Source: a virus. From it: a stretch of 25,347 bases of DNA. Shown in pieces: positions 6,219 to 15,711 of the stretch. The first letter of the stretch is position 1, and each line of letters begins with the position of its first letter. Position numbers and translations under genes: made by a program. A model generated the notes under the pieces. It ran no database searches. It was given only the letters and a program-made list of their open reading frames with translations, and was not told where the DNA came from. The stretch covers positions 1-25,347 of the IMG/VR virus record IMGVR_UViG_3300030380_001332; one strand, 5' to 3'.

Positions 6219-6745
6219 TAAAATGTCCCTTTGAATGTGCCGCCGCGAGATTTCATTACAGCCCCGCCACGTTTTTTAACTAAACGTGGACCCGGACGAA
6301 TATCAATAACACCATCTTCATTTGATGTGCCACCACCAGCACCCTTAATACTTGTAAGTTTTTTTCGGGTTTTTCTTTTTGACTTCTCGCGTTTTTCTTT
6401 TTCTTTTTGTGCTTGTTTCTGTTGATACTCTGCTCTGTTTCTAGCAGCTTTTCTGTTTATGACATCATCACTTACTTCTTTGGTAAGTAGATCTGCTTTG
6501 CCTTTTTTGTCAGCGTTGGCGTAGTCAATCGGTAAACCTTGACTTAAATTAAATTTAACTTTCCCAGATGCCTTGAAGTCTAACCTGGCAGAGTCACTAG
6601 GAGTAACATAGTGTAAGCCTTTGGCATCTACTCCTGTGCTTTTTGTCGTAACGGTTTTTCCGTCAGGAGTTTTTGCGGTCATTGTAATTCTTTTTTCGTT
6701 ATAGACCTTGCGAACACGCTTTCCATCTATTGTATATTCAGACAT
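6218..6745 (-). CDS. Basic hypothetical virion-region protein with RGGTFKGTF tag
   Basis: 175 residues. The N-terminal two thirds is mixed beta-like sequence (IDGKRVRKVYNEKRITMTA at 6-24). It is followed by a very basic helix (about 100-130, Lys/Arg/Gln-rich) and a Gly-rich linker, and it ends in GGAVMKSRGGTFKGTF. This tail is shared with the downstream 85-aa protein. The start ATG at 6745 overlaps the stop of the 1399-aa gene by one base. Function is not recognisable. It is probably a structural or morphogenesis protein, given its place between the giant protein and the portal. Confidence 0.7.
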   Translation of the reverse strand: MSEYTIDGKRVRKVYNEKRITMTAKTPDGKTVTTKSTGVDAKGLHYVTPSDSARLDFKASGKVKFNLSQGLPIDYANADKKGKADLLTKEVSDDVINRKAARNRAEYQQKQAQKEKEKREKSKRKTRKKLTSIKGAGGGTSNEDGVIDIRPGPRLVKKRGGAVMKSRGGTFKGTF

Positions 6746-9700
6746 TACATTACTTCCCTTGCCAAAGCACCGATGCCTGAGTGTATCATCTTTCGTGGTC
6801 TCAAGTCCACTTCTCCGCCTTTTGCGCGACGGATTTCACGGGTTGCGGCCTTCGTGTTGCCGCTGTCATCAAAGTCTATAATTCTTAGTCCTTCCCCGTC
6901 TGAGGCAAAAAGAACCGGAGGGCGACCAGCAACATTAGGTCCGTCTTTAGTGGAAAAAATATTATTCGGGTCCGGGTCTACTAGGTTTCCGTTTTCATCT
7001 CTTTTGTTTACATTACGACGAACAGTTCCACCGTTATCCTCAAACTCTTTTAAAGCTTTATCTACAGTCTTTTCATAAGTGTTAAAATAGGCATCCTTAC
7101 CAATAGCATCTCCTCCATGTGTTTTAAACATGTCAGCACCTGAAAAGAACACAACACCGTTTATATCATCTTCTTCTTTTGCGGTTTTAATTATAGAGCG
7201 CACTGCATACCTAAAATAATCAGATTGGTTTTTAAATGGTGGAGGCAGAATAAATCCGGTTTGGTTTCCTGACCCGGTGTACTGCTTTACTTTATTAAAA
7301 GCATCTACTTTTTCCAAGTCTATGCCCTGTGCCTCTGCTGTTTCACGGGCGTTGTCCATCAGCGTAGATTTTTCTGCGTCGCTTAAAACATCGCCAGACT
7401 GCATTATCTCTGCTCGTCTTTTATCGAACTTCATAATATCAAAAACACCTCGATTATGTCTATGCCCCAGACCACCTATGCTCTGGGCAAGGATACTCTC
7501 AAGATGAACGTCCGATAAGAGATCATCTAGGTCTAAAAAGATACGAGTCTCTTCTAAAATACCGCCCCCGTAAGTTTGTTCAAGTTCGTCTAATTTATCA
7601 GCATATGCTTTAGAAAGCTTCACCTTAGTCTCTGGACTAAAAGAAGCAACCATTTCTTTTATTTTATCACGAGTAGGAGTGCCAAATTCTGGAACGCTTT
7701 CGTCTTTAGTAAGATTAAGCCAGCTTTCGTCCTCACCTTTTAAAATCTTTCCAACAGCAGGATCTATTTCACCCAAAACTTCCGTAAGCGCAGCGTGCGC
7801 AATACCTTGTCTTCCATAAACCTCGTCGGTGGTTATTTCCCTAAAGACTCTTTCCTTAAACTCTGCTGGTGTTATGTTATTATCTGCAACTTCTCTGGCA
7901 GCAGGCGTCATCCCCCTTTTAAGTTGTCTAATATGTTTTTCTACGTTTTGAACAGTGGTAGGCTGACCAGCGGACCTTAAAGAACTTTCAATCATTCCTT
8001 CTATAAAAGATCGATTATTTTCAATGTAGTCTAGTACATAGTTGTCTACTGCGGTGAAATCACCGCCTGTATTGCTCAACCCAGAAAAGAAATCAGACTC
8101 ACCTGGCAGAGGAAGCACCGTTGCAAGATCATCTTTGTTTTGTAGCAGAAAAGACCTTGTTGTAATTTCTGGAAGTCTACGACCACGAGGACTCAATGCA
8201 ATATATGGATGCCTTGTGCTATCTACCATTGTGGCATCAAACAGAGCTTCAGTTTTATTATCTAAATCAATTAATTCATTTTCAAAACGATTGCTTTTAG
8301 TGATTTCTTCTGGAAAAAGCTTTTCCGCTACTTTTTCAAACTTTTTAGCCTCTGCGTCATAAGGTATTCTTACTTTTCCAGATTCCCCATAAGACGTAGC
8401 GTCTCCAGAAGCCCCCTGACTTGCTGGTGACTCAAAGAAAGCGTCAAGTCTTTCATCAAATGTTTTTACTTTTTGTATCTTTCTTACTACTTGCATGTCT
8501 TTTATTGTTTTGTTTTCAGCAGCAGCGCGGTCTTCAATTGCTTTTACCTCTGGCCCATCAATATCTGGAAGCTGATACTTGTTGTCCGGGTTCTGGACGA
8601 ATATGGTTTCTACATTACCGTCTTCATCCTCAAGTTTCATTCTGTAGCCTTCTTCTTTTGGCATCTCTACCCCAGAACCCATATCATAGTCTCGAATAGC
8701 ATTTGATTGTATTTCATTCACAACCAAATATCTTTTTTCGTCAGGGGTGGTAACTATGTATGTTCTGGCCCAACCAAAGTATCCGGGTATCTTTTTACCG
8801 CCGGGAGGTCCCGCAAAACCGTAGTCATGCCCTGCCATAACTGAAGGTATGTCATCAAGCGATGAACCATCATTAAATGCTATGCTATCTGGCTTGTTGG
8901 TAGAAAAAACAAATAAGGCCCCATCATCCGCCACTCGTTCCAAAGAAGGATGATAATTTGAGGGCGCACCTACCCTTGTTATTTGACCATTCTCGTCTAC
9001 ATCTCCAATGTAGGGAATACCCCGCTCCCGATAAGGTGTTTTGTTGTTAACAAAATCTTCACTATGATTTTTTAAACGGAACATTCGACTACGAACTTGC
9101 GGTAAAAACTCCTCTGCTTTTTCAATCGCGGTCACGGATTGAATTTTGTTGTTACCTTCATCAGCTAACCGGAGTAGTTCATCCTGAAATGGGCTATCCT
9201 TGTACTCGGCTTTCATAGCACCTTTAAGAAGTCTTTTGTCCAACTCTGACGGTCTAATCCCAGCTTCAGGGATTTTTTTCATTTCTTCTTGCGCATGAAG
9301 ATTTGTTAGGACAGGAGAAAAGTTATCAACCTTTTCACCAAACTCACCCGTGTCATCCACGGTATAAACCATGTTCTGAGAATTGCGGTCAGGCTTTCTT
9401 CGATACCCCGGAAGAGACATCAACGAATCATAAGTAAATTCTGGCACAGCAGGATCAAGGTCACCCATAGCTTCATCTGCCTGACGGGTTCTTCCAATGC
9501 CAACTTCAGGGCCGGGGGTTCTCGGTTGAGCCGGAGTTGCCTGCTGAGTGTTTTCTACATCGTCAAGAGCACGAGCCTGTGATGCTGCATCAAACAGTTG
9601 ATTAGCCTCGTCACCTTCTGGTGCAGTTGCTGGAGTAGCTGTAAACTCACCCTCAATAGTTTGATTCGGGGTGACATTTGCAGAATCAATTAAAACTTCA

Positions 9701-10944
9701 ACTTCGTCTTCTGTCCCTCTGCCCCCGCGAAAAGTGGCGTTCGGAGCAGCTAAAATATCCCCGGCACGAACAGTATATTCAACCAGCGGCTGTCTTTCTT
9801 CACCTCTTCGTTCACGAATACGCTGACCCGGCAACTGCCGACCTTCAATGCTTCTACTTAAACTGAAAGACTGAACCTCACCCGGCTGAATATCTCCTAC
9901 TCTAAACACTGTAACAGGTGTTTCTGGAGTTAGTTCTGCTACATCCAAGCCCATAAATCTTTCAACAAACATTTCAGCTTCATCTGCAAGTTGTGAGCGG
10001 ACATCACTAAGAACCGCGTCATTCACAGGATCCGCAGCAGCACCAAGATCATCACCTCTTCTTCGACTTAAAAGTTCGCCAGCGATATCCGCAGCGTAGC
10101 CACGATCATTTGACACAAGAGCAGCCATTAGATCGTCTGCCTCTTCCTCCTCAAGCTGCATCATAACATCTGCAAAATCACCGCGATCAACCTCTGTGGG
10201 TCTGACTGATTGCGCTGCGGGGTCTTCGCCGCGTTGAAATGCTGCTGTCTCTTCAGGCGTTGCCATGCGCTGAGTGACTTCGGTTCGTAACACCGGAAGA
10301 CCAGTAACTTCACTTCTTGGAAGGTCTGATAAACTAATATCCCCCGTAGTGTTAAAACGTACAGGTTGCTGTTCTGTTTCTACAGGTGCAAGGTCCGTGG
10401 ACCGAGTTGCGGGGGTGTCGGTCCTTGAACCTGCCTTCAATAAAGCACCAATACCTTTGAACGCAAGAAACGGATCGGCTATAAACTCACCAAACAACAT
10501 CCCCTGACGAAATGGATTCATACCCGCACGAGAAGCTGCGTCACCGCTTTCGGACTCTGCGTCCATATCTTCGCCAAATCCCATAGCACGACCGATGGCC
10601 TCTGCACCTGCGACTTTCTGAAACGCATCAAAAGCCTTAGCAAATTGTCCGCGTTCTTCTATATCCAGCGGTTCCCCGGTCACTAACTTGTTCAGTAAAG
10701 AAGGAGCGTCACGGAAAAGTAAAGCAAGCAGGTCTGCCGGAAGTCCCAGTAACCCGGCAGGAAGACCAACGCCCACACCTTTCAAAGTTTCCAAACCTTC
10801 GCGCTGTCGAGCAGCAAGACCTGCGGGAGTAAGTTCATCAGCCATAAGCTGCCGACCCAGCAGATTACGCTGGACATTTTCTATCGCTTGTCTTCTTTCA
10901 GCTTGTCTTGGAGTCTCTGGTCTTGGTTCGGGCAGGGCAACCAT
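6745..10944 (-). CDS. Giant 1399-aa terL-adjacent protein with ADP-ribosyltransferase-like segment
   Basis: The largest gene in the window. Visible regions: a Leu/Gly-rich hydrophobic stretch at about 54-78; acidic low-complexity sequence (260-330); a segment at about 343-424 with TVFRVG (R348), SFSLS (S359, S361) and EDEVEVLID (412-420), the order of the R-S-E triad of ADP-ribosyltransferases; a disordered linker (430-500); then a long globular part. Near the middle FGWARTYIVTT and YLVVNEIQSN, and near the end VVFFSG with a Tyr/Lys helix, resemble the large 'polyvalent' phage proteins that carry an EIQSDW-like motif. It ends in KGGEVDLRP..., another glycine-spaced tail. A likely role is an ejected internal virion protein that acts in the host; that is inference. 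The start overlaps the terL stop (TAATG). Confidence 0.75.
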   Translation of the reverse strand: MVALPEPRPETPRQAERRQAIENVQRNLLGRQLMADELTPAGLAARQREGLETLKGVGVGLPAGLLGLPADLLALLFRDAPSLLNKLVTGEPLDIEERGQFAKAFDAFQKVAGAEAIGRAMGFGEDMDAESESGDAASRAGMNPFRQGMLFGEFIADPFLAFKGIGALLKAGSRTDTPATRSTDLAPVETEQQPVRFNTTGDISLSDLPRSEVTGLPVLRTEVTQRMATPEETAAFQRGEDPAAQSVRPTEVDRGDFADVMMQLEEEEADDLMAALVSNDRGYAADIAGELLSRRRGDDLGAAADPVNDAVLSDVRSQLADEAEMFVERFMGLDVAELTPETPVTVFRVGDIQPGEVQSFSLSRSIEGRQLPGQRIRERRGEERQPLVEYTVRAGDILAAPNATFRGGRGTEDEVEVLIDSANVTPNQTIEGEFTATPATAPEGDEANQLFDAASQARALDDVENTQQATPAQPRTPGPEVGIGRTRQADEAMGDLDPAVPEFTYDSLMSLPGYRRKPDRNSQNMVYTVDDTGEFGEKVDNFSPVLTNLHAQEEMKKIPEAGIRPSELDKRLLKGAMKAEYKDSPFQDELLRLADEGNNKIQSVTAIEKAEEFLPQVRSRMFRLKNHSEDFVNNKTPYRERGIPYIGDVDENGQITRVGAPSNYHPSLERVADDGALFVFSTNKPDSIAFNDGSSLDDIPSVMAGHDYGFAGPPGGKKIPGYFGWARTYIVTTPDEKRYLVVNEIQSNAIRDYDMGSGVEMPKEEGYRMKLEDEDGNVETIFVQNPDNKYQLPDIDGPEVKAIEDRAAAENKTIKDMQVVRKIQKVKTFDERLDAFFESPASQGASGDATSYGESGKVRIPYDAEAKKFEKVAEKLFPEEITKSNRFENELIDLDNKTEALFDATMVDSTRHPYIALSPRGRRLPEITTRSFLLQNKDDLATVLPLPGESDFFSGLSNTGGDFTAVDNYVLDYIENNRSFIEGMIESSLRSAGQPTTVQNVEKHIRQLKRGMTPAAREVADNNITPAEFKERVFREITTDEVYGRQGIAHAALTEVLGEIDPAVGKILKGEDESWLNLTKDESVPEFGTPTRDKIKEMVASFSPETKVKLSKAYADKLDELEQTYGGGILEETRIFLDLDDLLSDVHLESILAQSIGGLGHRHNRGVFDIMKFDKRRAEIMQSGDVLSDAEKSTLMDNARETAEAQGIDLEKVDAFNKVKQYTGSGNQTGFILPPPFKNQSDYFRYAVRSIIKTAKEEDDINGVVFFSGADMFKTHGGDAIGKDAYFNTYEKTVDKALKEFEDNGGTVRRNVNKRDENGNLVDPDPNNIFSTKDGPNVAGRPPVLFASDGEGLRIIDFDDSGNTKAATREIRRAKGGEVDLRPRKMIHSGIGALAREVM

Positions 10945-12434
10945 TAGTAATACTCTCTCTTGCGTGGCGGTGCGTCGTCTTCAAACTCTTCGCCATCCAA
11001 TCTAATAAAACCGCCCTGGCGAAAGCGCATCAGGGCCATAGTCATACTATCACAAAAGTCATCATGGTCGCCATTGGGAAATGATGCAACCTCTTCGATA
11101 ACTTCGTCAGCAAATTTTTCCCCAACAGGATACCACACTTTGCCAGATTCAAAAATAGGCGAAACAATATGCATACGCGCTGTCTTGTCCAGACCTCCCC
11201 CACCCTTCCGACGACCGGGGGCAAAGGTCGCAACCGGGAGGTTCAGTAACCGCATTTCATCAGCCAACGGTTGACCAGACGCTTTTGCCTCAATCAACAT
11301 CAACTCTGGGTCCCAATACTCAAACTCTTCACGCGCTATGGTTTTAAGCTCTGGAAAGTTCCACCGACCCTTCTTTGCATCCAGCAATATTAGATGCTCC
11401 TCAGAATTTTTGTACGGGCGAAACACACCCCACGTTGTAATCGCAGAATAGTCAGCAGTTTCTTTCTTTGAATACGCGGTGTCGTAAGACTGTATTATGT
11501 AGTCTAAATCAGGAATATCGTCTTCTTCCCACTCCTGCCACCAGTCCCGCTTGACCATCGCGGTTTCTTCGGACGTAGGATTTTGTTGCCACTGCGCATT
11601 CCATTTGCCCACGGACAGCGAAGCTTTGACCTTGAGAAGCTCGTCCTTTTGCCAAAATTCAGGCCATAATGGTTCTCCCGACGGCATAATCGCAGGAAAT
11701 TCTACAACTTCCCACTGGTCAGCCATTATATCTTTGGCCTGTGCGGTCAGTAACCTGCCCGTGATATCCTTCTTTGACCACCGGGTTTGAACAATAATAA
11801 TGCTGCCACCAGGCTGGAGTCTCTGTCTAGGACCCGAAGTGTACCATTCATATGCGTTATCATAAGCAGATGTGGACAAGGCATCTTGTTCCGAGTGCGG
11901 GTCATCGATGATAAGCAAGTCCGCGCCACGACCAGTCATTGCTGCGCCCACCCCAGCAGCAAAGTACTCCCCGCCTGACGCTGTTTCCCATCTACCAGCC
12001 GCCTGACTATCCGCTTTCAAGTCCGTGTTCGGAAAGACCTCTTTGTATTTGGGGTCAGCGATGAGGTCACGAACCTTACGTCCAAATCTTACAGCAAGTT
12101 CGGTATTCATGGTAGCTTGAATAATTTTTAACTTGGGGTTCCTGCCAAGAAACCAAGACGGCATGAGATAGGATGCAAATTCTGATTTAGAATGTCGGGG
12201 TGGCATATTTACAATCAGTCTTTTTAAATCACCGCTTGCGATACGCTCCAGCTTTTCAGCTATGATTCTATGATGGGTCCCCTCTATGAAATTGTCATAG
12301 ACATGATGGACGTATGACATGAAGTCTTCTTGCGCTTTGTCACGCAGGTCAAGTCGTTTCGCCTGCTCTTCAAGCAGGTAGATTTCCTTGAGCACGTCAT
12401 CGGGCAGTAGTTCTAAGCTGGCTGTGTTCTCCAT
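10944..12434 (-). CDS. terL: Terminase large subunit
   Basis: 496 residues, full length. It is the DNA-packaging motor: an N-terminal ATPase pumps DNA into the prohead and a C-terminal RNase H-like nuclease cuts the concatemer. Seen: a Walker A variant MPPRHSKSE (77-85), Walker B LLIIDDP (173-179), a coupling motif QTRWS (216-220), then the nuclease acidic residues in SYDTAYSKK (D318), MLIEAK (E382) and HDDFCDS (D458, D462). The ATG at 12434 is the first in frame and has no clear Shine-Dalgarno. A leftward promoter candidate lies about 100 bp upstream. Unusually, its partner terS lies 2.7 kb away behind an oppositely oriented gene island. Confidence 0.95.
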   Translation of the reverse strand: MENTASLELLPDDVLKEIYLLEEQAKRLDLRDKAQEDFMSYVHHVYDNFIEGTHHRIIAEKLERIASGDLKRLIVNMPPRHSKSEFASYLMPSWFLGRNPKLKIIQATMNTELAVRFGRKVRDLIADPKYKEVFPNTDLKADSQAAGRWETASGGEYFAAGVGAAMTGRGADLLIIDDPHSEQDALSTSAYDNAYEWYTSGPRQRLQPGGSIIIVQTRWSKKDITGRLLTAQAKDIMADQWEVVEFPAIMPSGEPLWPEFWQKDELLKVKASLSVGKWNAQWQQNPTSEETAMVKRDWWQEWEEDDIPDLDYIIQSYDTAYSKKETADYSAITTWGVFRPYKNSEEHLILLDAKKGRWNFPELKTIAREEFEYWDPELMLIEAKASGQPLADEMRLLNLPVATFAPGRRKGGGGLDKTARMHIVSPIFESGKVWYPVGEKFADEVIEEVASFPNGDHDDFCDSMTMALMRFRQGGFIRLDGEEFEDDAPPRKREYY

Positions 12435-12494
12435 ACCCGAACGATAATATACGCGAATGAATTTATCAACCCTGCAACATGCATGCAGTATGGG

Positions 12495-12517
12495 CCGCAG
12501 GTCCGGTGTACCTGCGG
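12495..12517. terminator. Hairpin in the terL leader
   Basis: CCGCAGGT at 12495-12502 and ACCTGCGG at 12510-12517 form a perfect 8-bp stem with a 7-nt loop. It lies between the leftward promoter candidate (12530-12558) and terL. There is no T tract on either strand, so it may be a leader structure rather than a terminator. Its left arm contains GGCCGCAGG, the same core as the repeat modules found at 13.6-14.9 kb. Confidence 0.45.
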
Positions 12518-12691: not shown

Positions 12692-13096
12692 ATGACTGAC
12701 TATATAACAATCAAGACCGACAGCGACGGCACCACAATCTGGTTGCCTGCTGGCGTTAACGTCCAGACCGTAGCACCAAAGGCAGTTGAGCAGCGCAAGA
12801 CTGAAACCGTTGCCAAGCCCAGAGCAGTCGCCAAGTCTAAAGGCAAGCGTAACCGTATGCTGAACGGCATGACTTGTCAGGATGCCATACTGGATATTCT
12901 GACCCAGAAGGATGCCACCCCAAAAGGATTGGCAAGACTTACTGGATACGGGATGCAAACTTGTTTTGCCGCTATCCATATGCTACGCGCTGAAGGTCAT
13001 AAGATTGAAAAGCGCAAAGGTCGAAACGGTAAGTATCGTTATTGGGGACGTAAGGCGTTTTCAAAAGCAGTCTTTGGTGACAAGTATGGCTCATAA
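12692..13096 (+). CDS. Winged helix-turn-helix-like DNA-binding protein
   Basis: 134 residues. The first 58 residues are polar and probably flexible, with a basic stretch (KSKGKRNR, 49-55). Residues about 59-119 read as a compact winged helix: helix MTCQDAILDIL, a turn, helix TPKGLARLTGY, recognition-like helix MQTCFAAIHMLRAEG, then a basic hairpin EKRKGRNGKYRYWG. This fold usually binds DNA, so a transcription regulator is likely. It is the first gene after the divergent terL/island promoter region, which holds a perfect inverted repeat (12577-12595) that could be its site. The start has AAAGGA 8 nt upstream. Exact family not recognised. Confidence 0.7.
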   Translation: MTDYITIKTDSDGTTIWLPAGVNVQTVAPKAVEQRKTETVAKPRAVAKSKGKRNRMLNGMTCQDAILDILTQKDATPKGLARLTGYGMQTCFAAIHMLRAEGHKIEKRKGRNGKYRYWGRKAFSKAVFGDKYGS

Positions 13097-13301: not shown

Positions 13302-13514
13302 ATGAAATACGAAGAAATTGAAAACCCAACCTATGAACAGTTTGAAAAAGAATGCAATCGTCAGGTGACTAACATAGCTGGACTTGGCATTCATGATCTA
13401 GCAGATGCAAGCTGGCGCGATTATTTCGACGCTGGCATGTCTCCGCGCAATGCAATCGAGTGTGCTAATGATGATTTTTGGGACGGGGAACTCAGCGACA
13501 TTCTGCACGGGTAG
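13302..13514 (+). CDS. Small acidic hypothetical protein
   Basis: 70 residues, acidic (many Glu/Asp), with the stretch LADASWRDYFDAGMSPRNAI at 33-52, which reads like a small helical domain. No family is recognised with certainty. It lies alone between the GNRA hairpin at 13275-13290 and the strong hairpin at 13600-13624, so it forms its own cassette. Its small size and acidic nature are common in early phage proteins that bind and inhibit host proteins, but no target can be read from the sequence. Confidence 0.65.
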   Translation: MKYEEIENPTYEQFEKECNRQVTNIAGLGIHDLADASWRDYFDAGMSPRNAIECANDDFWDGELSDILHG

Positions 13515-13520
13515 TTGACC

Positions 13521-13595
13521 ATGAACATCCAAGCCCATGCCGCTATATCAGCGTTGATGATCTACACCGTTTACCTGTGTATCACACAATTTTAA
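13521..13595 (+). CDS. Possible 24-aa hydrophobic peptide
   Basis: A short open frame, ATG at 13521 and TAA at 13593-13595, encodes a mostly hydrophobic peptide (MNIQAHAAISALMIYTVYLC, then ITQF) that could span a membrane once. It fits exactly between the 70-aa gene and the hairpin at 13600. There is no clear ribosome binding site, and a frame of this size can arise by chance, so confidence is low. Confidence 0.25.
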   Translation: MNIQAHAAISALMIYTVYLCITQF

Positions 13596-13599
13596 TGCA

Positions 13600-13624
13600 G
13601 CAGGCCCAGCGTAGCTGGGCCTGC
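13600..13624 (+). terminator. Strong hairpin, probable terminator
   Basis: GCAGGCCCAGC (13600-13610) and GCTGGGCCTGC (13614-13624) make a perfect 11-bp stem with a 3-nt loop. It is followed by ATTGTTGTG, a weak T-rich tail. It would end transcription of the 70-aa gene. The stem itself contains GCAGGCC, the core of the repeat module that starts just after it. Confidence 0.6.
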
Positions 13625-13628
13625 ATTG

Positions 13629-13693
13629 TTGTGCGCGCCGCGCAGCCGAAGTTCGCAGGCCGCAGGCCGCCGATGTGGGCCGCAGGCCGCAGA
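13629..13693. repeat. GCCGCAG repeat module, copy A
   Basis: The module starts with a palindrome (TGCGCG-C-CGCGCA, 13632-13644), then CCGAAGT, then tandem 7-nt units GCAGGCC/GCCGCAG, a short spacer with GTGGGCC, and more units ending in GCAGAATTA. Copy B (14012-14070) has the same order of parts: a TGCG/CGCA palindrome, CGAAGT, GCCGCAG units, GTGGGCC, units, GCAGATTA. Both directly follow terminator hairpins. Confidence 0.65.
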
Positions 13694-13766
13694 ATTATTG
13701 TTTTGTGTTTATGGGATTATATGGTAGAATATAGGATAATCAAATAACCATATGAAAGGAAACATC
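13694..13766 (+). promoter_or_regulatory. AT-rich leader with weak promoter and good ribosome binding site
   Basis: Between repeat copy A and the zinc-ribbon gene the sequence turns AT-rich. TAGAAT at 13725-13730 is a possible -10 with a poor -35 (TTTGTG, 13702-13707, 17-nt spacer). AAGGA at 13756-13760 lies 6 nt ahead of the ATG at 13767 and decides that start over the ATG at 13752. Confidence 0.4.
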
Positions 13767-13973
13767 ATGTCAGTTACTAAAGATGAAGCATACACATCAA
13801 AACTGTTTAAACTGTTTAATGAAATGCCAAAGTATAAAACTAAAGGTCAGGAAGATTGTGCAGATTGCGAATGGATTGCTGACGAAACAGACGGCGAAGT
13901 TTTAATCTGTGGAGAGTGTCAGCACGAACAGCACATTAATTATCTCAAGTTTCGTGCTCGTGAAGAAAAGTAA
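13767..13973 (+). CDS. Small zinc-ribbon protein
   Basis: 68 residues. Start chosen at 13767 because AAGGA stands 6 nt before it; an ATG at 13752 would include that site inside the gene. The protein has a helical N-terminus (MSVTKDEAYTSKLFKLFNEM) and then CADC and CGEC pairs about 18 residues apart around an acidic hairpin. This is a classic four-cysteine zinc ribbon, followed by a His/Arg-rich tail. Such small ribbons bind nucleic acid or protein partners. It has its own leader and its own terminator (13980-14003), so it stands as an independent cassette. The partner is unknown. Confidence 0.7.
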   Translation: MSVTKDEAYTSKLFKLFNEMPKYKTKGQEDCADCEWIADETDGEVLICGECQHEQHINYLKFRAREEK

Positions 13974-13979
13974 ACAACA

Positions 13980-14010
13980 GGAAGGCGGCGCAAGTCGCCT
14001 TCCGTTTTTA
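13980..14010 (+). terminator. Intrinsic terminator
   Basis: GGAAGGCG (13980-13987) and CGCCTTCC (13996-14003) form a perfect 8-bp stem with an 8-nt loop, followed by GTTTTTATT. This is a good rho-independent terminator for the zinc-ribbon gene just upstream. Confidence 0.8.
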
Positions 14011-14011
14011 T

Positions 14012-14070
14012 TGTGCGAAGCGCAACGAAGTGGGCCGCAGGCCGCAGGCGTGGGCCGCAGGCCGCAGATT
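14012..14070. repeat. GCCGCAG repeat module, copy B
   Basis: It begins with TGTGCG-AAG-CGCA and CGAAGT, then GGGCCGCAGGCCGCAG (14032-14047), a GCG spacer shared with neighbouring bases, a second GGGCCGCAGGCCGCAG (14052-14067) and ATT. It directly follows the terminator at 13980-14010 and is followed at once by a promoter (14076-14103). The part order matches copy A. Confidence 0.7.
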
Positions 14071-14075
14071 AGAAG

Positions 14076-14103
14076 TTGACTTATTCTATGGTTGGGATAA
14101 AAT
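14076..14103 (+). promoter_or_regulatory. Promoter of the GP88-family gene
   Basis: TTGACT (14076-14081) and TAAAAT (14098-14103) are 16 nt apart, 30 bp ahead of the ATG at 14133. Both hexamers are close to the sigma70 consensus. Because of this, frames that start at the TTG at 14076 are not credible. Confidence 0.55.
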
Positions 14104-14132
14104 GGGAAAAGATAATAAGAAAGGGAAAAGCT

Positions 14133-14720
14133 ATGTTATCAAATACCAGTAAAATGCCAGGCAAGTCCATAAGCCTTTCAGCGTGGAAGTGTAAAACAGG
14201 CGACAAGCTAGCAAAGATTAAAGGCTCAGTTTGCCATGACTGCTACGCTAGAAAAGGCCGCTACAACATGCCAAACGTGACAGACAAAATGGAAGAGCGG
14301 TTAAAGTTTTTTAATGCTATTGATTTTGTGCCTAGAATGGTCGCTATGTTGAACAAGACAAGGTCGCCTTATTTCCGTTGGTTCGATTCAGGCGACGTGC
14401 AGAACGTCCGCATGGCGTTAAACATTATCGACATAGTTAAGGCAACACCAGAAAAGAAACACTGGATCCCCACAAAAGAACGTAAAATCTGGCTTGAAGC
14501 ATTGAAGCTTGAAGCGTTGCCAGATAATGCTGTCATCAGATACAGCGCAACAATGGTAGACGATACGCCGCCGGAAGATTGGGAACACTCAAGCGCGGTC
14601 GTAAAAAATGCCGCGCCAATTGGTCACGAATGCCCAGCCCCAACACAAGGCGGAAAGTGTGGCGAATGCCGCGCTTGCTGGTCGCGTGATGTCAAAACTG
14701 TTTCATACCACAAACACTAG
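14133..14720 (+). CDS. GP88-family phage protein (cysteine-rich, function unknown)
   Basis: 195 residues from the ATG at 14133; AAAGGG lies 6 nt upstream. The arrangement resembles the phage 'gene product 88' family: SNTSKMPGKSISLSAW near the start, a KIKGSVCHDCYARKGRY core (28-44) with C34 and C37, a central FRWFDSGDVQ (81-90), and a C-terminal cluster HECPAPTQGGKCGECRACW (165-183) with C167, C176, C179 and C182. Six ordered cysteines suggest bound metal or an iron-sulfur cluster. The family's activity is not known to me. The gene stands alone with its own promoter and terminator inside the island. Base composition does not differ clearly from its neighbours. Confidence 0.7.
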   Translation: MLSNTSKMPGKSISLSAWKCKTGDKLAKIKGSVCHDCYARKGRYNMPNVTDKMEERLKFFNAIDFVPRMVAMLNKTRSPYFRWFDSGDVQNVRMALNIIDIVKATPEKKHWIPTKERKIWLEALKLEALPDNAVIRYSATMVDDTPPEDWEHSSAVVKNAAPIGHECPAPTQGGKCGECRACWSRDVKTVSYHKH

Positions 14721-14726
14721 TACACA

Positions 14727-14757
14727 CAGCGCACCCGTCAGGGTGCGCTGATTCTTT
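14727..14757 (+). terminator. Terminator of the GP88-family gene
   Basis: CAGCGCACCC (14727-14736) and GGGTGCGCTG (14741-14750) make a perfect 10-bp stem with a 4-nt loop, followed by ATTCTTTAT. It ends rightward transcription before the convergent VRR-NUC gene. On the minus strand no T tract follows, so it is probably one-directional. Confidence 0.7.
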
Positions 14758-14886
14758 ATGCGCGAATCCTACTACATCATCCGCAGACCGCAGGCCGCAG
14801 ACCACCGGGCGCAGGCCGCAGACCGCAGAGCATCGGGCGCAGATTTAATGTTGCCCTGCCAGATGGACATAGGCCGCAGGTCATCG
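14758..14886. repeat. GCCGCAG repeat module, copy C (diverged, overlaps VRR-NUC 3' end)
   Basis: After an ATGCGCG start like the palindromes of copies A and B come several CCGCAG/GCCGCAGACC units with CGGGCGCAG spacers (14780-14853), ending in GCAGATTTA; a further GGCCGCAGGTC lies at 14872-14882. It again directly follows a terminator. Read on the other strand it encodes the Ala/Arg-rich last residues of the VRR-NUC protein (14772-15209). Confidence 0.6.
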
Positions 14887-15209
14887 GCCCTTGCACCTTG
14901 GATTTCCAAAGCTTTTCCACTCTCAAATAAAAATACATCGGACTCGAAGGACGACGAAGCAAGAAAAAAAGAAACGCCACCGCACCTAGAATGCGATAAA
15001 TGCCAAGCAATTTGGGACGGTTGTAGGGTTATCCCATTTCTTTTTATTATCTTTAATTCAACCCATACTGGTGCGCCATCGATACACATATATACATCGG
15101 GCATTCCCTCTGCCACACGATTCTCAATCCGTTGGCAATGTGTCTTTTTCGGCAGATGTTTCTTCAGTGATTGCCAAAGGTTCTTCTCTGTTTTCGATGA
15201 TTTTGGCAT
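14772..15209 (-). CDS. VRR-NUC domain endonuclease
   Basis: 145 residues. The VRR-NUC fold is a PD-(D/E)XK nuclease found in phages, often near SNF2 helicases, and in eukaryotic FAN1. Seen: a helical start (KNLWQSLKKHLP), RIENRVAEGMPDVYM with the catalytic Asp (D38), WVELK with E51 and K53, and PSQIAWHLSHSRCGG (65-79) ending the core. It likely cuts branched or flapped DNA during replication or packaging. The ATG at 15209 lies 86 nt inside the terS gene in another frame; the N-terminal helix belongs to the family, so the overlap looks real. Residues after about 105 come from repeat copy C and are not part of the conserved domain. Confidence 0.8.
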   Translation of the reverse strand: MPKSSKTEKNLWQSLKKHLPKKTHCQRIENRVAEGMPDVYMCIDGAPVWVELKIIKRNGITLQPSQIAWHLSHSRCGGVSFFLASSSFESDVFLFESGKALEIQGARADDLRPMSIWQGNIKSAPDALRSAACARWSAACGLRMM

Positions 15210-15711
15210 CAGATATTTCTCCCTCGATAAAAGCGTGTGGATAAGATTTCCGCAGTTCTGCCAGACGTGCGACTATATCCTGTTTAGTCATGCTGTCCAA
15301 CTGGTGGACGTGTTGCTGTTCTCGCCTGTCAATAGTCAGGCCACCCAAAGCGGAACGAATTTTTTCAGCATTGATTGCAGCAGAATACTGCCCAGCCTCT
15401 TCCGCTCCTCTGGACAATTCATCCAGACGTTTAAGCTGGTGCATCAGGGTCACGCCATATCTGCGTTCAGCCGCCTGTCTCAATTCTTTTATAAGTTCAA
15501 CAACGTCAGGAAAGTCTCTGCCGTTCAGAAGTTTGGATGCCATAGTGATAGAAGACTTGTCAGAGTAGCCAGCCATTCTTGCACACTCAGCGTTGCTATG
15601 TCTGCCCTCGACGTAATACTTGGCAAAAGTCTTCTGGCGTTCCGTCAATCCTGCTGGCCTACCAACTTTGCCTATAGTGTTTTCTGTGGGTTTTTCTTTT
15701 TTAATTTTCAT
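15124..15711 (-). CDS. terS: Terminase small subunit
   Basis: 195 residues. TerS recognises the packaging site and delivers phage DNA to TerL. Residues about 22-62 form the usual N-terminal helix-turn-helix (LTERQKTFAKYYVEGRHSN, then CARMAGYSDKSSI), after a basic leader. Residues about 70-125 are helical and suit ring oligomerisation. The C-terminal tail (about 150-195) is acidic and disordered, where TerL often binds. The start ATG at 15711 has no strong ribosome binding site. Its leader carries the AAGACACTT repeat cluster. The VRR-NUC gene starts within its 3' end, so the two are probably co-transcribed. Confidence 0.8.
   Translation of the reverse strand: MKIKKEKPTENTIGKVGRPAGLTERQKTFAKYYVEGRHSNAECARMAGYSDKSSITMASKLLNGRDFPDVVELIKELRQAAERRYGVTLMHQLKRLDELSRGAEEAGQYSAAINAEKIRSALGGLTIDRREQQHVHQLDSMTKQDIVARLAELRKSYPHAFIEGEISDAKIIENREEPLAITEETSAEKDTLPTD

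Follow-up and report, generated by a model that had tools for sequence, protein, structure and literature searches.

Gene cassettes of integrons usually lack a promoter of their own. In T4-like phages, the promoter early stem-loop (PeSL; Arbiol 2010, Comeau 2014) is a composite of terminator and promoter found in a hypervariable region and, in the part of the literature consulted here, is said to mediate gene shuffling (PMC4503421). Halovirus HF2 has intergenic repeats whose positions are conserved and which were shown to carry promoters (PMC8707807). The start-associated sequences of cluster K mycobacteriophages are one-strand repeats upstream of non-structural genes; they are common to gene families and have an extended form with inverted repeats (PMC3203893). 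Finally, the ribbon-helix-helix protein Omega (ParB) of pSM19035 cooperatively binds contiguous 7-bp units that overlap promoters (PMC9499535).

The locus compared here with these systems belongs to the IMG/VR virus record IMGVR_UViG_3300030380_001332, of which a stretch of 25,347 bases was analysed as a whole (the window). An island of small plus-strand genes lies there between the minus-strand genes of the large (terL) and small (terS) terminase subunits, with a GP88-family gene in last position, and each of its cassettes has the order promoter, gene, terminator, module (Table 1). No description of arrays such as those found in the modules was encountered in the literature searched. We favor, with a probability of roughly 0.55, the reading that single-gene units are under the control of this terminator-array-promoter header, probably because proteins bind its repeats, and that recombination also uses it as a joint.

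Oriented arrays between the island genes

Table 1. Coordinates of the island, its modules and its borders in the window
Feature	Position	Strand	Basis	Remarks
terL, terminase large subunit	10944-12434	-	phrog_38, E = 6e-104; Terminase_6C	left border of the island
Isolated GGCCGCAGG unit in the terL leader	12493-12501	+
Island gene	12692-13096	+		no Pfam match
Island gene	13302-13514	+		weak DUF5419 match, score under the gathering cut-off
Terminator-like hairpin A	13600-13624	+	sequence; folded	weak T run
Module A	13631-13694	+		TGCGC-GCC-GCGCA hairpin and CGCAG heptad units
Putative promoter A	13703-13730	+		TTGTGT-N16-TAGAAT
Cassette gene	13767-13973	+		present or absent among close relatives
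Terminator B	13980-14003	+	sequence	T run 14005-14009
Module B	14013-14069	+		TGCGAAGCGCA hairpin and CGCAG heptad units
Putative promoter B	14076-14103	+	sequence	TTGACT-N16-TAAAAT; same promoter scored in relative L053
GP88-family gene	14133-14720	+	PF17338, E = 3.5e-26
Terminator C	14728-14749	+	sequence; folded
Nuclease-like ORF	14772-15209	-		beside terS; 3' end reads through module C
Module C	about 14778-14886; core 14782-14844	+		nine heptads in register
terS, terminase small subunit	15124-15711	-	PF03592, E = 2e-09; phrog_51	right border of the island

The preliminary description had reported tandem GCCGCAG units behind three island genes, and the modules are indeed located where it placed them. 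GCCGCAG is present 13 times in the window, always on the plus strand, when 2.3 copies are expected on both strands and none of 100 shuffles reaches 13. The repeats are real, but their unit is better read as a CGCAG core followed by two nucleotides, the 2-nt linker giving the 5-nt core a pitch of 7 nt: eight CGCAG pairs are spaced by exactly 7 nt within 13601-14900 (shuffle mean 0.00, maximum 1 in 1000 shuffles). Modules A and B have the same order of parts, as had been noted (TGCG..CGCA hairpin, CGAAGT, units, GTGGGCC, units, GCAGA). Module C had been considered a diverged copy; two of its nine in-register heptads do have a degenerate core, but the preserved register of CGCAG plus two nucleotides makes it more than that. 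All three modules come after a hairpin, although the first hairpin directly follows a hydrophobic ORF of 24 codons and not the gene at 13302-13514. This ORF (13521-13595, MNIQAHAAISALMIYTVYLCITQF) is nearly identical in two relatives (L053 and L064). The genes starting at 13767 and 14133 each have, as proposed, a putative promoter of their own after a module; no promoter is found downstream of module C, which falls inside the 3' end of the nuclease-like ORF encoded on the other strand. The unit that had been pointed out in the terL leader is present, as a single copy that may be due to chance.

The hairpins of the modules were also studied. A strict "palindromic tetramer plus 3" hairpin was discarded: folded as RNA, the modules surpass shuffled sequences only slightly or not at all (z = -3.0, -0.4 and -1.3, neighbouring terminators included). 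There are 14 distinct CTGCG..CGCAG inverted repeats; of the 8 positions of their outer stems, 6.93 pair, versus 4.95 when the arms are re-dealt, and a compensatory pair separates the hairpins of L089 and L090. No Rfam family and no tRNA was detected in scans of the window.

Concerning the proteins, the C-terminal half of the product of 12692-13096 reads like a winged helix-turn-helix, a fold judged by eye only. The nuclease-like ORF matches phrog_2165 (E = 4e-24, annotated as DNA helicase) and the endonuclease phrog_93 (E = 0.003), and a GMPDVY..VELK motif was spotted in it by eye. An AlphaFold model of the GP88 protein made without an alignment was uninformative (pLDDT 31). The 1,399-residue protein that adjoins terL (6745-10944) has no Pfam or PHROG match.

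Distribution of the arrays among relatives

The same organization is found far beyond the window, in aquatic, uncultivated phages that form a large family and carry the island between terL and terS. The first set of relatives was picked by the module pattern itself; since this choice entails a selection bias, a second set anchored on terS alone was added. In this module-blind set, arrays are present in 41 of the 60 loci that have at least 600 bases of island, and their orientation is uniform, since all 119 of them lie on the strand of the island. The 19 loci below the array threshold include some with looser units (L108-L111), one with CCGAC repeats (L127), the array-less members of a GC-poor clade (L130-L135) and most of L141-L154. 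In L127, CCCCGACC repeats stand in for modules (121-230 and 1500-1680, island orientation) and abut TTGACA. The situation that the preliminary description named as refuting it, the same genes in relatives that lack modules, is encountered in part: one close clade (L128-L135) is devoid of arrays, but the only array-less island that was read through, that of L133, consists of different genes in close succession. One of these, at L133:4160-5290 (island orientation), is cytosine methyltransferase-like.

The header layout recurs as well. Upstream of the modules, at a distance of no more than 130 nt, there is a terminator-like hairpin in 71% of 164 cases versus 4% of shuffles, the 48 modules without a scored terminator being genuine exceptions, though the scorer is simple. 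In 58% of 76 leaders, versus 10% in shuffles, the module is followed within 75 nt by a promoter-like TTGH/TANNNT pair, and none of 193 modules overlaps a recurrent plus-strand island gene. The distance between array and -35 box varies in the window clade (median 17.5 nt over all leaders), which counts against the header reading, as does the lack of a promoter after array C, next to terS, and after most of the arrays with a CAAGC core described below.

The proximity of module C to terS brings up another scenario, in which this module would be the packaging start, a TerS-binding (pac) site, and modules A and B side copies of it. In favor of this scenario, module C is long and present in most relatives. 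Yet, array strand follows the island genes: each of the 603 arrays found up to 2.5 kb from a GP88 or c0 gene (the alternative occupant of the same slot) has the strand of that gene, and this holds whether terS is opposite to it, as in one clade, or in the same orientation, as in another. Moreover, the core type switches or vanishes inside the terS clade that bears CGCAG, and further arrays are found at other cassette borders, so that a packaging site appears very improbable.

Across clades, the core has 5 nt and the linker 2 or 3. Linkers are mostly GC or GT in the window clade and the pitch is 7 or 8 depending on the clade; the combination of a fixed pitch with free linkers is thus established for the CAAGC clade only, the HTVC027P-like phages, which also weighs against the header reading. 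There the cores are spaced by exactly 7 nt in 1,076 of about 1,190 cases, arrays being defined as cores at most 15 nt apart and larger spacings being therefore uncounted. Positions of the core register are 91-93% conserved, while linkers carry 3.68 of 4 bits and are close to random. These loci were found through a 19-base heptad pattern, so the presence of arrays in them reflects selection, but this does not apply to the variety of their linkers, to the adjacent promoters, or to strand and gene neighbourhood. All 80 have a homologue of the island, packaging or primase genes of the window. TTGAC[ATC] occurs within 30 nt of 78 of the 223 array ends (145 have none), and in 54 of these 78 the -35 box starts immediately behind the last core.

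One could also consider the arrays as intergenic minisatellites of little function, generated by slippage or by hairpin-templated copying, with units derived from a hairpin arm (CCTGCG-n-CGCAGG). Copy number is variable, a single module at L138:3540-3824 (island orientation) having reached 28 cores in some 285 bases; perfect hairpins with the unit as one arm exist in L089-L095 and L027; and neighbouring linkers in the CAAGC clade are identical slightly more often than expected (17% vs 11%). Nevertheless, slippage would copy linkers together with cores, contrary to the near-random linkers and conserved core of the CAAGC clade, and the strand bias of 119 to 0 also argues against this origin, which we regard as unlikely.

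Several other features were recorded. The units at L136:4002-4080 (island orientation), GCAAGGCC, are intermediate between the CGCAG and CAAGC forms, and in phage 023Pt_psg01 another motif, GGGTGGGCCC..CGAGC, recurs between the genes of the corresponding locus (L083:2410-5475). The idea that linkers evolve in concert inside a genome was not retained (a modest effect in one clade, none in another), nor was GGCC avoidance, for which counts were near or under expectation in several loci without a clear pattern. A host origin was set aside on weak grounds: a single scan of genome contigs with a double-unit pattern gave mostly GC-rich actinobacterial and scattered other matches, and no set of marine hosts among them.

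Cassette turnover and its joints

The comparison of relatives largely confirms that the island is made of single-gene cassettes with a common separating element, since gene content varies between modules whose flanks are constant. The slot adjacent to terS is occupied by c0 (41 loci) or by GP88, also called c1 (31 loci), in 72 of 78 loci, and the other slots vary; the cassette gene of the window is missing in L053, L093, L089, L091 and L092. The genes c0 and GP88 are both cysteine-rich but unlike each other; they interchange beside terS (L034 vs L038) and are also present in other phage groups. Their distant homology was unsupported by hhalign, with shallow alignments, and no such arrays were seen by eye in the autographiviruses CRP-118 and CRP-171, which carry c0/GP88.

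The 70 pairwise joints that were listed are non-independent, and those located within modules reduce to two clear cases. L053 lacks the cassette and its single module is a chimera of modules A and B of the window; L105 also lacks a cassette and its single module is a chimera of modules 1 and 2 of L021. A third similar case, L089, L091 and L092 versus L090, involves the gene already seen in the first. In the favored reading, the recurrence of the same array at every border also provides the direct repeats by which whole cassettes are deleted or gained. Many indel or swap joints, including the c0/c1 swap, are at gene edges and stop codons, which counts against this reading.

Several scenarios may explain this turnover. 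The chimeric joints, the exchange of genes between modules and a constant layout whose motif differs by lineage might reflect a boundary element only, in which terminator, repeat and promoter would be kept as a safe homologous joint resembling PeSL and the array would be protein-free. However, a pure homology joint requires neither a fixed 7-nt pitch with varying linkers, nor -35 adjacency, nor a strict strand rule, and the joints at gene edges do not favor it either; we hold it as rather doubtful. Alternatively, the interchangeable single-gene units in a row could be the product of an integron-like or other site-specific system, as the preliminary description suggested. It had itself seen no integrase, and the searches made with ORFs of the window, a record of 25 kb where related complete phages have 57-62 kb, revealed no integrase or recombinase, IntI tyrosine integrases included. 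Contrary to integron cassettes, most units here have their own promoter; the motif is lineage-dependent and the joints correspond to ordinary direct-repeat homology. No match to the RYYYAAC/GTTRRRY boxes of attC was seen by eye on modules and hairpins. Such a system is extremely improbable.

Proposed control of the cassettes and comparison with known systems

The header consists of three successive parts: the terminator that closes the upstream gene, an oriented array made of 5-nt cores and short linkers, and a putative promoter of sigma70 type that serves the downstream gene. According to the favored control-and-joint reading, it would turn most island genes into independent transcription units. 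Since the core is conserved, the pitch fixed and the promoter adjacent, we infer that the array is bound by protein: it would probably be a multi-site platform for a putative DNA-binding protein, on which the strength or the timing of the neighbouring promoter would depend. A more precise version, which we propose tentatively and at less than even odds, is that a phage or host protein binds the array next to the -35 box cooperatively, reading a heptad code of five fixed and two free positions, and thereby gives the single-gene cassettes a separate temporal class; the code would drift by lineage (CGCAG, CGCAAGG, CAAGC, perhaps CCGAC) and the layout would be kept.

HTVC027P has four CAAGC arrays, and gp34 and gp33 are its only genes with an array before their start. 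In a published time course, these two genes form their own expression cluster, high at 6-9 hpi (PMC12753301). This fits a control role, as a single case made of two genes and one published class. Upstream of gp34 there is also a long stem-rich non-coding stretch (L081:3171-3720), possibly an RNA.

Elements related to this one are found in numerous contigs of aquatic phages, among them relatives of cultured pelagiphages. Should the arrays control timing, they would offer a handle on gene expression in these phages, which have no RNA polymerase of their own; if they are joints, they would provide a concrete and testable case of single-gene exchange without a dedicated recombination system.

Among the known systems, the repeats of HF2 differ from these short-pitch arrays in being 58 and 29 bp long and in belonging to an archaeal virus (PMC8707807), and those of cluster K are isolated 13-bp sites placed where the ribosome binds rather than arrays upstream of promoters (PMC3203893). 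The contiguous 7-bp units of Omega at promoters have a counterpart in the CAAGC clade and partly in the window clade, but they are WATCACW heptads in either orientation in a plasmid system (PMC9499535), whereas the cores here are CGCAG or CAAGC. As far as the accounts of PeSL consulted describe it, the likeness is in the succession of a terminator stem-loop and a promoter between genes, and in recombination joints inside the element, though other joints exist here too. The differences are the oriented array of 5 plus 2 or 3 nt intercalated between terminator and promoter, the sigma70-like promoters and the phages themselves, which are relatives of pelagiphage HTVC027P and not T4-like. Because these T4 features are lacking, the element is not classified as a PeSL; by analogy, it would work like a PeSL with an added array.
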